Positions 20,218 to 62,554 of a DNA stretch of 64,000 bases are shown piece after piece. Made by a program: the position numbers and the translations under genes. The stretch comes from Oceanobacillus timonensis (lineage in GTDB: Bacteria; Bacillota; Bacilli; Bacillales; Amphibacillaceae): positions 4,078,344 through 4,142,343 of the forward strand of contig NZ_LT800497.1 of the NCBI RefSeq assembly GCF_900166635.1, read 5' to 3'. Position 1 is the first letter of the stretch. Every line of letters starts with the position of its first letter. The notes under the pieces were generated by a model. It did not search any database and was not told the origin of the DNA. It worked only from the letters and a program-made list of their open reading frames with translations.

Positions 20218-20310
20218 ATACTTAAATAAAGCCTGTCCAATTCACTTAAACAGGCTTTTGTATACGCAAAAAAGAATACACTTTACCTATTTATGTGTTG
20301 ACGTTCGTTT

Positions 20311-20440
20311 TCTTCTCCCATCCAGACTATTACTGTCGGCTCTAGAATCGCACTAGATCCACCGCTCAACGCGGGTCACGGACTTCAAACTTTATCTGTT
20401 TGTCACCGCCGGTCGGGAATTGCACCCTGCCCCGAAGAAT
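20311..20440 (-). ncRNA. FMN riboswitch (RFN element)
   Basis: The minus strand shows the conserved aptamer blocks in order: CGGGGCAGGGTG, CCCGACCGGCGGT, GTCCGTGACCCGC, GCGGTGGAT, GCCGACAGT and CTGGATGGGAGAAG. It senses FMN and switches off the rib operon by transcription termination at 20192-20217. Confidence 0.96.
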
Positions 20441-20498
20441 AATATTAAATTTTGTTATTACCCTTTGTTACTTTAAATACTCTAACATGTTAAAAATG

Positions 20499-41787: not shown

Positions 41788-41834
41788 TGATTGTATAAAA
41801 ATTCAACGATTGAATGATATATCATCATGTTCCT

Positions 41835-41920
41835 GCCACTTCCCTACGCTAGTGTTAACCAGATCAGGTTCAAAGGGTCCGAAATATTCGTCTCAGCCAA
41901 AGGCTCCCCTAGTGTTGCTT
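41835..41920 (-). ncRNA. TPP riboswitch (THI element)
   Basis: Conserved blocks on the minus strand: ACACTAGGGGAGCC, GGCTGAGA, ACCCTTTGAACCTGATCTGG and TTAACACTAGCGTAGGGAAG. It turns off the thi operon when thiamine pyrophosphate is plentiful. Confidence 0.96.
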
Positions 41921-49375: not shown

Positions 49376-50659
49376 TTAACGAAACGAAAAAGATTCTACC
49401 GTCTCTTTTCCCGAAAACATATCCTTCACGTTAAACTGATTATTCCTGACTTCCCCATCGCCAATGATGATTACGTTTCGTATTTTTTCTTTATTCGCCC
49501 TGTCAAGCGCCTTATCGACCTTTTTATTGCCTAATTCCACCTCTACGTTATATCCTTTCTCCCGGAAATATGTTGATACAGACAGCGATTCTTTTTCTCT
49601 CCCTAGAGGAATAATATAATAATCCACCTCTTTTCCAACAGACTGAATTCCTTCCCCAGCGGCCATCGCGGTATAAATCACATCCAGCCCAAAAGAGATT
49701 CCAACGGTAGAGAAAGTTTCATCTGTTCCTATCAGTCCGCCGATTGCATTATCATATCTTCCTCCGCTCCCGATGCTGGACTTCAACGAATCATCCGCTA
49801 AAAACATTTCATAAACCGTACCTGTATATATTTCTAGCCCTCGTGCCAGAAACGGATTAAATATACATTGGTCGCTAATATCCAAATAATCAAGATATGA
49901 TTTCAGCTCTTTTAGTTCCTGCAATCCCTGTCTGACTTGTTCATTTTGATTAGATAATGATTCAAAACGGGTAAAGTCAGTATGATAGTCAGCCGTCAAA
50001 AATTGTTTAATGGAGCAGACCGCATCATCTGACACTCCTAGTTCAGCAAGCTCGGCTATAACTGCGTCCATCCCTATCTTCTCCAGCTTATCCAAAATCA
50101 GCACCACTTTATTGATTTTCACATCCGCTACACCAAACACTTCCAATGCTCCGGTTAATAATTTCCTATTATTATATTGAATATTCACCTGCATTCCAAG
50201 CTTGTCAAAGCCATCCAGCGCCATCATCATTAATTCCGCTTCAGCCAATTGTGAATCTACACCGACAATATCCACATCACACTGAGTAAATTCACGCAAT
50301 CTGCCTGTTTTTATTGGCCCATCCCGAAATACTTTACCAATTTCATACCGCTTAAATGGCATTTTTAATGTCGGGTTCATTGCCGCCACTTTGGCGAAAG
50401 GAATGGTAAGGTCGTAGCGTAAAGCCAGGTCTCTTTCTCCCCTGTCTGTTAAGGTGTACATCTCCTCTAGTATTTCTGCTCCACCGCCATACTTTGAAGC
50501 AAGCAATTCCGTATAATTTAAGATCGGTGTTTCCAGCGGTTGACATCCATATTGAATAAATACATCTTCTAATGTTCTCCGGATATTTCTGCGCATACTT
50601 TCTGACTCCGGCAAATAATCTCGTGTTCCTTTTACATTTTGATAATCCATTTTCTTCAT
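49376..50659 (-). CDS. hisS: Histidyl-tRNA synthetase, second (archaeal/eukaryal-like) type
   Basis: 427 residues, ATG behind AGGAGG. Class II motifs: ALRYDLTIPFAK and FKRYEIGKVFRDGPIKTGRL with REFTQCDVDIVG (motif 2), HisA segment RGLEIYTGTVYEMF, and SSIGSGGRYDNAIG with VGISFGLDVI (motif 3); an anticodon-binding domain covers about 330-427. The LRYDLTIPFA and REFTQCD wording differs from the housekeeping B. subtilis HisS and fits the second HisRS found in some bacilli. The leader carries a His-codon attenuator instead of a T-box. Confidence 0.9.
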   Translation of the reverse strand: MKKMDYQNVKGTRDYLPESESMRRNIRRTLEDVFIQYGCQPLETPILNYTELLASKYGGGAEILEEMYTLTDRGERDLALRYDLTIPFAKVAAMNPTLKMPFKRYEIGKVFRDGPIKTGRLREFTQCDVDIVGVDSQLAEAELMMMALDGFDKLGMQVNIQYNNRKLLTGALEVFGVADVKINKVVLILDKLEKIGMDAVIAELAELGVSDDAVCSIKQFLTADYHTDFTRFESLSNQNEQVRQGLQELKELKSYLDYLDISDQCIFNPFLARGLEIYTGTVYEMFLADDSLKSSIGSGGRYDNAIGGLIGTDETFSTVGISFGLDVIYTAMAAGEGIQSVGKEVDYYIIPLGREKESLSVSTYFREKGYNVEVELGNKKVDKALDRANKEKIRNVIIIGDGEVRNNQFNVKDMFSGKETVESFSFR

Positions 50660-50690
50660 TTTTCCTTACCTCCTATTTTTAAATACAAAA

Positions 50691-50736
50691 AAATCGCATT
50701 ATGAGTTAAGTGATTTACTTAATTCAAATGCGATTT
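50691..50736 (-). terminator. Attenuator terminator ahead of hisS
   Basis: A long hairpin (AAATCGCATT / AATGCGATTT plus inner TGA/TCA and TTAAGT/ACTTAA) followed on the minus strand by TTTTTTTG, 20 bases before the hisS ribosome-binding site. Confidence 0.88.
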
Positions 50737-50792
50737 AATGTATAATAGCCTTCCTCATTCGATTTTTTAAATTAAATCGATCAGCAAGGCTA
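50731..50792 (-). ncRNA. Antiterminator and pre-emptor hairpins of the hisS leader
   Basis: The leader can fold a pre-emptor (TAGCCTT/AAGGCTA, 50746-50752 with 50786-50792, inner TCGATTT/AAATCGA) or an antiterminator (CGATTTAAT at 50771-50779 with ATTAAATCG at 50731-50739). The antiterminator uses bases of both the pre-emptor and the terminator, so the structures exclude one another. Confidence 0.65.
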
Positions 50793-50846
50793 GTTGATAT
50801 GATGATGGAATTGTGAGAAGGAATCATTTGTTTTAACGAAAACCAT
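50790..50846 (-). CDS. His-rich leader peptide (hisS attenuator)
   Basis: 18 residues, MVFVKTNDSFSQFHHHIN, with GAGGTG six bases before ATG. Three consecutive CAT codons (50799-50807) lie just before the stop, and the stop lies inside the 5' arm of the pre-emptor hairpin. A ribosome held at uncharged His codons would cover that arm. Confidence 0.75.
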   Translation of the reverse strand: MVFVKTNDSFSQFHHHIN

Positions 50847-50870
50847 TTTGCTCACCTCTGATTTCGAATA

Positions 50871-50899
50871 AGTTTAGCATAACCAATTGATATTTTCAA
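50871..50899 (-). promoter_or_regulatory. Promoter of the hisS leader
   Basis: On the minus strand TTGAAA (50894-50899) and TAAACT (50871-50876), 17 bases apart, about 20 bases before the leader-peptide start codon. Confidence 0.6.
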
Positions 50900-50948: not shown

Positions 50949-51815
50949 CTATTCCTTCGCTTCCTTCAAATCCCGATTATTTCGCAGGAACATGTAAAAC
51001 GATGCGCCAAAGATAGCAAGATAGCCAAAGATACTCCATATATCTGGAATTTGCCCAAAGAAGACAATGCTAAAGATTCCTGAATAGACGACTGTAGAAT
51101 AGAAAAAGATAGATATCTCTTTTGCAGGTGCAAATTTATAAGCAACGGTAACACCGAACTGCCCGACGGTTGCGAACACGCCTGCTGCAAGCAAATACAA
51201 CCACTGCGTTCCAGTCATCGGTTCATAAAAAAAGATAACTGGCGGTAATAGAATCACCGTGGAAAAGGCTGAAAAATAAAATACAACCGTATAGAACTGT
51301 TCTTTATTGCCAAGTACTCGTAAAACGGTGTAAGCCCCTCCGGCAAAAACAGCGGATAAAATCCCCGCTGCATAAGGAACTATATCCAAATTGAAAACAG
51401 GCTTAATAATAAACAATGTTCCAAGAAACGCAATAATAACAGAAACCACCTGAAACCGCATCACGTACTCTCTTAGAAAAATCGCAGCAAAAATAATCGT
51501 TATAAATGGACTCATTTTATTCAGCATATCCGCATCGGAAAGAACAAGGTGGTCGATTGCATAGAAATTCAACAAGACCCCTATCATGCCCAAAGCGGAG
51601 CGCAAGAGTAAGTATTTTTGGTTTTTCTTTTTCCCAAAAAGCCGCTCTCTATGATATAGCACAAAACCTAACGCAATCAACATTGCTACTCCATTACGAA
51701 ATAATGTTTTTTGTATGGTAGGTACGTCCCCTGACAACTTTACAAACATTGCCATCAACGCAAAACCTAACGCAGACAATAATAACAATAAGATTCCTTT
51801 ATTTCTGTCACTCAT
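50949..51815 (-). CDS. EamA/DMT-family transporter
   Basis: 288 residues with ten hydrophobic segments in two EamA repeats (residues 5-135 and 148-280). Drug/metabolite transporter superfamily; cargo unknown. Single gene. Confidence 0.83.
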   Translation of the reverse strand: MSDRNKGILLLLLSALGFALMAMFVKLSGDVPTIQKTLFRNGVAMLIALGFVLYHRERLFGKKKNQKYLLLRSALGMIGVLLNFYAIDHLVLSDADMLNKMSPFITIIFAAIFLREYVMRFQVVSVIIAFLGTLFIIKPVFNLDIVPYAAGILSAVFAGGAYTVLRVLGNKEQFYTVVFYFSAFSTVILLPPVIFFYEPMTGTQWLYLLAAGVFATVGQFGVTVAYKFAPAKEISIFFYSTVVYSGIFSIVFFGQIPDIWSIFGYLAIFGASFYMFLRNNRDLKEAKE

Positions 51816-62368: not shown

Positions 62369-62554
62369 CCTTCAGTGGGGTTTTTCGACGCACATGGATG
62401 TGCTAGTGCAGACGTTACGACACGACGTCGCGAATTTAGTCTGCTCCCCCCAGTGAAGGTTAGTTGAACGAATCGGGCCGTTACTGGCTGTTGGATCTCC
62501 CACTTAGAAATAAAATTTTCACTCATTTCTTGAAGTGGGAGTCTTATAGCCAGT
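62369..62554 (+). mobile_element. Structured RNA-like element, possible IS200/IS605 (TnpB) right-end remnant
   Basis: Nested helices: CCTTCAGTGGGG / CCCCAGTGAAGG (62369-62380 / 62448-62459, one mismatch) enclosing GCACA-TGGA-TGTGC and GCAGAC/GTCTGC, then ACTGGCT/AGCCAGT (62483-62489 / 62548-62554) enclosing CTCCCACTT/AAGTGGGAG. It is richer in GC than its surroundings. The pattern recalls the structured 3' region of TnpB-coding IS200/IS605 elements, but no tnpA or tnpB is present. Confidence 0.5.

Follow-up and report, generated by a model that had tools for sequence, protein, structure and literature searches.

His-codon leader peptides have been described, as predictions, in several groups of Firmicutes. 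In the hisS section of Naville and Gautheret 2010 (PMC2965389), the 5' regions of hisS* and hisZ in bacilli are presented as highly similar, short ORFs with a stretch of His codons are noted there, a T-box is placed on hisS, and His leader peptides are predicted for both hisS* and hisZ. Ashniev et al. 2022 (PMC9413887), in the parts that concern His-leader attenuators, assign these to the his operons of the B. cereus group, of Peptostreptococcaceae with Lutispora and of Erysipelotrichales. The locus described here lies on the minus strand of a 64,000-nucleotide stretch of the Oceanobacillus timonensis genome (the window). Its initial annotation had regarded his-type attenuation as best known from Proteobacteria, a view that needs widening, as such attenuation has already been predicted in Firmicutes, also for a hisS paralog (PMC2965389, PMC9413887). 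The kind of switch is thus already known in prediction, from the His leader peptides ahead of hisS*/hisZ in bacilli (PMC2965389).

With the predictions of 2010 our locus shares a bacillar hisS paralog, a short ORF with His codons, a premature terminator and a T-box on the ordinary hisS; the hisS section of that paper names no Oceanobacillus leader and contains no covariation test (PMC2965389). It also resembles the leaders of 2022, likewise from Firmicutes, in which three to five His codons in a row stand directly before the attenuator and terminator hairpins, but those leaders control biosynthesis operons and have reported antiterminators, and the term hisS is absent from the main text (PMC9413887). 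Control codons, hairpin and terminator recall E. coli hisL and trpL, although the stall-specific blocking of the terminator arm that marks these two was not seen in the window's clade. The Rfam model His_leader (RF00514) scored 19.0 bits at the window leader, below its gathering threshold of 49. T-box leaders have in common with this locus the gene class (aminoacyl-tRNA synthetases), the signal and transcription termination; unlike them, hisS2 is preceded by no T-box match, and the T-box is found on the ordinary gene, hisS1. New here are the breadth and covariation of the hisS2 leader, four Gln-codon versions preceding a gene for an rRNA methyltransferase, and the T-boxes predicted for the ordinary hisS in the same genomes. 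Also new is a clade of the second-type HisRS (which we label HisRS2) that is devoid of the motif-3 arginine; in 10 of the 23 genomes of another family, no other HisRS was found. Overall, we consider it quite probable that the leader is a ribosome-sensing transcription attenuator of hisS2, raising its expression when charged tRNA-His is short.

Layout of the hisS2 leader

The features of the locus are, in the direction of transcription:

50871..50899, minus strand: promoter TTGAAA-17-TAAACT with TG before the -10 (extended -10), from a promoter scan
50851..50859, minus strand: Shine-Dalgarno sequence AGAGGTGAG of the leader ORF, with similar sites in most aligned relatives
50790..50846, minus strand: leader ORF MVFVKTNDSFSQFHHHIN, 18 codons plus TAG (ATG at 50846, TAG at 50790)
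50799..50807, minus strand: CAT CAT CAT, three consecutive His codons
50746..50792, minus strand: hairpin P1, 5' arm TAGCCTT (holding the stop codon) and 3' arm AAGGCTA, by fold and covariation
50687..50736, minus strand: intrinsic terminator, hairpin 50736-50691 plus a seven-T run at 50693-50687, by fold and covariation
50669..50674, minus strand: Shine-Dalgarno sequence AGGAGG of hisS2
49376..50659, minus strand: hisS2, second-type histidyl-tRNA synthetase, 427 aa (NCBIfam NF009085, 608 bits, cut-off 540)

Several parts of the initial annotation were confirmed, namely a promoter ahead of the leader, an 18-codon leader with three consecutive His codons, a stop codon inside the 5' arm of the first hairpin (TAG opens the P1 5' arm), a terminator with seven T just before hisS and a second-type HisRS downstream. 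The 501 bases contained 4 promoter-like sites, where shuffles had 2.7 on average; because this count is barely above the shuffles, the promoter call is carried by the recurrence of the block in relatives, most of the aligned ones having a TTGAAA...TATGATAC-type block similar to that of the window (by eye). An ORF on the same strand (50949-51815) lies upstream of hisS2. Past its 3' end, at about 50940-50901, an inverted repeat resembling a terminator can be seen by eye, so that hisS2 is probably transcribed separately from that ORF. A 9-nt linker separates P1 from the terminator hairpin. Elsewhere, the minus strand of the window also holds an FMN riboswitch (20306-20443), a TPP riboswitch (41824-41920) and a Bacillaceae-1 RNA (62389-62455).

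The leader folded at -48.1 kcal/mol compared to -27.6 in shuffles (z -5.6; 0 of 200 shuffles as good), and P1 and the terminator were formed together in the minimum-energy structure. A simple consensus scan for terminators listed none in the leader region; the premature intrinsic terminator before hisS2 was identified by fold and covariation.

Conservation of the leader and its Gln-codon variant

A protein scan of genome contigs gave 143 HisRS2 relatives, the best 80 of which were kept as named loci. At 79 of these 80 (the best 80 of 143), hisS2 was preceded by a short ORF with two or more His codons at its end, the stop codon lying mostly 120-155 nt before the gene. The run consisted of three His codons in 70 leaders, two in 5, four in 2 and five in 2 (L013 and L018 are outside the leader counts), and 230 of the 235 His codons in the runs were CAT (79 leaders: the window, L015 and 77 named loci). 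Of 82 upstream regions (the window, the 80 named loci and L015), 75 contained a short ORF with an ATG start and HHH close to its end, compared to 3 of 1640 dinucleotide shuffles. We infer translation of the leader from its start, Shine-Dalgarno sequence, stop and His run, because variability at the three codon positions in the eight codons before the run (0.556, 0.523 and 0.562) revealed no third-position excess and no coding signature. Extra DNA separates terminator and gene in L040, L045, L048 and L015. The one named locus without a leader, L029, is a second hisS2 copy of Oceanobacillus sp. J11TS1, situated about 12.7 kb from L026, in which a piece resembling the 3' part of the terminator is still present.

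Covariation was evaluated in an alignment (A1) of 78 rows, 77 of them distinct, comprising the window and 77 named loci and leaving out L029 (no leader), L099 and L100 (too diverged) and L015. P1 was paired in 90.0% of cells (85.7 in shuffles), with 60 two-sided changes over 17 pairs (19.3 in shuffles) and a covariation of 0.171 (0.093 in shuffles); the corresponding values for the terminator were 89.1% (84.1), 81 (27.8) and 0.230 (0.145), and none of 500 shuffles reached any of these six values, with the proviso that the tested structures were drawn from the same sequences, which favours them over slid versions. The outer helix of P1 was paired in 98.3% of cells and the inner helix in 74.8% (78 rows). 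At the foot of P1 the stop was kept as TAG, TAA or TGA with the other arm compensating, TAG/GGCTA being replaced by TAA/GGTTA in 10 of the 77 distinct rows and TGA standing with GGTTA in L175. A nearly invariant G.G mismatch in P1 is not required by pairing. In most leaders the stop codon stands two codons past the His run. Judging from these compensatory changes, P1 and the terminator are real. The expectation that relatives would share the His run and the paired arms held for the run, P1 and the terminator; the antiterminator candidates (see below) did not covary.

A covariance model built from A1 (R1) was run on 397 genomes of the order and matched 67 places in 66 genomes, with hisS2 as the next gene at 61, the window's own place included; three of these 61 (L126, L152 and L171) have a broken or short frame, and named loci recur in some of the genomes. 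The six places without hisS2 next to them were L174 and L178 (the Gln variant described below), L138, L151 and two weak matches. In L138 (genome G136), a leader with HH stands directly before a HAD-family hydrolase gene, and the 3.1-kb locus contains no hisS2, while L151 (G022, of the same genus as the window) holds decayed hisS2 pieces and a leader that looks decayed too. Decaying hisS2 genes, as fragments or with an in-frame stop, were also observed in L019/L020 (G110) and L018 (G083). The weak R1 matches L181 and L182, together with L187 of the own genome, lack a leader ORF and were regarded as chance matches. R1 gave no second good match in the own genome, and no His run was seen by eye upstream of its hisZ-like gene. 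In G280 (L118/L190), the His leader precedes a 338-aa HisRS2-like frame, and a full HisRS2 follows after about 2.8 kb.

In the family of genome G583, R1 gave 16 matches in 14 of 35 genomes. Four genomes (G583, G606, G533 and G449; loci L202, the same as L174, L204, the same as L178, L205 and L206) carry leaders with Gln codons in place of the His run. The leader peptides end in QQQN, QQQQ, QQQK and QQQQI, and the stop codon, at the foot of P1, follows the run directly or after one more codon; AACCGCA is invariant, and the terminator end is TGCGGTTTTTT. The P1 G.G mismatch was kept in L174 and L178, the two that were folded. Each of the four lies directly before an RlmI-type rRNA methyltransferase gene; the L174 protein stayed below the cut-offs of the 23S rRNA m5C methyltransferase families that it matched (E 4e-62 and 2e-52), and the other three proteins are 58-69% identical to it. 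The ATG frame found for the G606 gene starts late, and an alternative 400-aa frame begins at a GTG 42 nt downstream. Among 30 rlmI loci scanned over 350 nt (L240-L246 left out), a Gln leader was found only at L209, which is the same place as L206, and none was found upstream of the own rlmI. Because four relatives have Gln codons where the others have His, it seems to be the repetition of one amino acid, and not the bases of the run, that is read. Our literature search found no report of a leader peptide with glutamine codons and attenuation.

HisRS2 and the ordinary synthetase

The hisS2 product passed the cut-offs of both NF009085/PRK12420 (608.2 bits, cut-off 540) and TIGR00442 (356 bits, cut-off 287). 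In addition to HisRS2 in the window, the own genome encodes an ordinary hisS, about 30% identical, with a frame behind it that by eye reads as aspS, and also a gene (21%) that was called hisZ-like by eye. The initial annotation had named T-box RNAs as the usual control of such genes in bacilli, and the ordinary gene indeed carries an Rfam T-box (135.5 bits). A T-box at hisS2 was rejected: the T-box model (RF00230) reached its gathering threshold nowhere in the window, and close to hisS2 it listed no match even with E values up to 10. In 24 chosen genomes, 19 of 22 ordinary hisS loci had a T-box, the three others (G280, G363 and G168) all being outside the order. The 19 T-box genomes included 16 with hisS2 (one with an in-frame stop), two with a broken copy (G110 and G022) and one in which it was not found (G136).

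The motif-3 arginine was replaced in all 77 HisRS2 frames that reach motif 3 (the window and named loci, leaving out the early-stopping frames L034, L075, L087 and L098), with DV in 76 and DA in 1, compared to GLER in E. coli and in the own HisRS1. To our knowledge, this arginine is otherwise near-invariant in class II enzymes. The same R versus V difference is visible in the PDB alignments 6nhi and 3net, and the other active-site stretches of HisRS2 look kept (by eye). In the family of G203 (23 genomes), ten genomes, 69-98% complete, had exactly one HisRS match, of the GLDVI type; the other thirteen had higher-scoring ordinary-family matches instead, two of them with a second match, and were of the GVER type in seven where the motif was read (in G802 and G806 on the second match). 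No HHH leader was found in up to 450 nt upstream of the ten GLDVI-type genes. As the only HisRS match in ten genomes, HisRS2 still seems to be a working synthetase. No report of motif-3 arginine loss in a HisRS was found in the titles and abstract openings among the matches listed. Part of one paper on Lactobacillus reuteri says that its hisRS2 holds the catalytic residues (PMC4122935), and the HisRS passages of an overview of duplicated synthetases list HisZ alone (PMC9437257).

Ribosome position and predicted relief of the terminator

A ribosome usually covers about 12 nt from the first base of its A-site codon. By that footprint, a ribosome at the first His codon of the window leader ends 3 nt before P1, one at the third His codon covers the first three bases of P1, and one at the stop codon covers the whole P1 5' arm. 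A ribosome waiting at the first His codon should therefore stop short of P1, and only one at the stop codon should open it, which is the reverse of the masking of the 5' arm by a waiting ribosome that had originally been proposed.

We then determined the paired share of the terminator 5' arm just before its 3' arm emerges, with the ribosome blocking 12 nt from its A site. The trpL control behaved as expected (0.06 naked; 0.33, 0.69 and 0.71 at the first control codon and the next two; 0.06 at the stop), as did hisL (0.35 naked; 0.59, 0.62 and 0.66 stalled; 0.36 at the stop). Compared to these positive controls, the 78 Bacillaceae leaders displayed no stall-specific pairing (0.35 naked; 0.40, 0.42 and 0.40 at the three His codons; 0.43 at the stop), His1 exceeded the stop by more than 0.2 in only 2 of 78, and footprints of 9 to 18 nt gave nearly the same means. 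When everything on the 5' side of the ribosome was omitted, as in an earlier version of the test, the 78 leaders averaged 0.25 naked, 0.25 at His1, 0.32 at His3 and 0.44 at the stop (naked, two stalled positions and stop: 0.30, 0.62, 0.62 and 0.05 for trpL; 0.13, 0.57, 0.58 and 0.27 for hisL); in this version, the higher pairing of the arm at the stop than at His1 and His3 would favour the opposite sign of response. With the 5' bases included, the two Gln leaders tested were likewise free of a stall-specific pattern (L174: 0.47 naked, 0.60/0.47/0.43 stalled, 0.51 stop; L178: 0.42 naked, 0.44/0.48/0.65 stalled, 0.68 stop).

More distant leaders differed in this fuller test. The terminator arm was blocked more at a stall than at the stop, less sharply than in trpL and hisL, in L099 (0.34 naked; 0.60/0.70/0.54 stalled; 0.42 stop), L100 (0.51; 0.80/0.84/0.91; 0.52) and L118 (0.73; 0.80/0.77/0.81; 0.55), the naked RNA of L118 being blocked nearly as much as the stalled one; the effect was weak in L105 (0.51; 0.61/0.52/0.51; 0.45). 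Folds of L099, L105 and L118 suggest five segments, in which a wait at the His codons would keep P1 (1:2) and let 3:4 form, while a ribosome at the stop would open P1, allow 2:3 to form and free the terminator; one of the fold runs behind this view misplaced the L099 terminator. The geometry in which the stop-codon ribosome covers P1 fits these relatives. In the Bacillaceae leaders, the window included, no RNA antiterminator like 3:4 was found. The expected signal thus appears absent from these models, which is not proof of absence, as nearest-neighbour energies miss proteins, ribosome contacts and kinetics.

A classical three-hairpin attenuator, in which the waiting ribosome masks the P1 5' arm and the freed sequence pairs with the terminator 5' arm to block termination, was the mechanism initially proposed and is, in our view, unlikely. 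The pairings concerned are CGATTTAAT with ATTAAATCG, or AAUCG..AUAGG with CCGUAUUUGAUU. Complementarity is present in the window, where the third hairpin (CGATTTAAT with ATTAAATCG) contributes -8.2 kcal/mol as part of a duplex, and this pairing had 26 cells with two-sided changes (16.8 in shuffles; reached by 4 of 500). However, it was paired in 65.8% of cells (66.7 in shuffles) with a covariation of 0.106 (0.104 in shuffles; 204 of 500), and it was rejected as an antiterminator for the window's clade. The 2:3 candidate, chosen from the consensus, was paired in 78.4% of cells compared to 17 to 39% for slid versions, but its covariation was not above shuffles either (0.062 against 0.073, 491 of 500 as high), and a small hairpin of linker and terminator arm (78.0% paired against 77.8; covariation 0.046 against 0.058; mean fold energy of the stretch -0.9) was also discarded. 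Opening P1 did lift terminator-arm pairing, from 0.25 naked to 0.44 at the stop when 5' bases were omitted, and one relative of the same order, L180, has a strong 2:3 antiterminator (-21 kcal/mol), which was paired alike at stall and stop (0.83 naked; 0.84/0.83/0.96 stalled; 0.97 stop). Against this reading, folds up to the terminator loop with P1 masked averaged -4.7 kcal/mol compared to -19.2 for the terminator, and a His-stalled ribosome barely reaches P1 by the usual footprint. A mutual-information scan for extra helices showed nothing helix-like beyond P1 and the terminator (by eye), the top pairs being those of P1 and the terminator mixed with apparent lineage signal. Of the three mutually exclusive hairpins first described, P1 and the terminator thus exist, but both fold together and the third pairing is not maintained in relatives, and a freed antiterminator found no backing in the 78 leaders.

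Alternatively, the ribosome itself might act as the antiterminator: an opened P1 would expose its 3' arm AUAGGAAGG, which is rich in purines and resembles a Shine-Dalgarno sequence placed 8-9 nt ahead of an AUN triplet at the terminator foot, and a 30S subunit bound there would block the terminator 5' arm. AGGAAGG or AGGAAGA occurs in 73 of 78 leaders, the P1 G.G mismatch is kept without being needed for pairing, and the triplet is ATG in 29 of 78 and GTG in 5 of 78, with 6 AAT rows that may hide an ATG one base on. On the other hand, the triplet is a poor start in many leaders (ATT in 27 of 78, ATA in 7 of 78), the purine tract is altered in diverged ones (ACAGGG in L180, GGGAAAG in L178), and readthrough would be linked to ribosomes at the stop and hence to sufficiency rather than shortage; we regard this version as distinctly unlikely. 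A fixed leaky terminator, constitutively lowering hisS2 without sensing histidine, would agree with the lack of a stall-specific fold, but it leaves unexplained both the His run before P1 in 79 of 80 loci and its change to a Gln run in four relatives, and appears very improbable.

His-codon attenuation of hisS2 is therefore well supported, while the three-hairpin mechanism is not. When charged tRNA-His is ample, ribosomes would reach the stop codon and leave, and most transcripts would end at the terminator; when it is short, ribosomes would wait at CAT CAT CAT and more RNA polymerase would enter hisS2, providing a backup HisRS. In the distant relatives, the prediction is that P1 stays intact while the ribosome waits, which allows a separate antiterminator (3:4) to fold. 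For the Bacillaceae leader, a speculative and rather unlikely proposal is a codon-programmable attenuator without an RNA antiterminator, in which P1 reads the position of the ribosome and the terminator is relieved not by a competing hairpin but by a protein or by a ribosomal subunit sitting on the P1 3' arm; the cassette would also have found a second use, with Gln codons, before an rRNA methyltransferase gene.

The folds predicted for this family of leaders range from antiterminator designs to one without, and this range makes the question of what relieves the terminator testable in ordinary laboratory bacilli, in which transcription is generally considered to outpace translation. HisRS2, in turn, questions the indispensability of the class II motif-3 arginine. 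Within one cell, two paralogous synthetases would respond to the same shortage through predicted sensors that differ: a T-box binding uncharged tRNA-His for hisS1, and a ribosome at His codons for hisS2.
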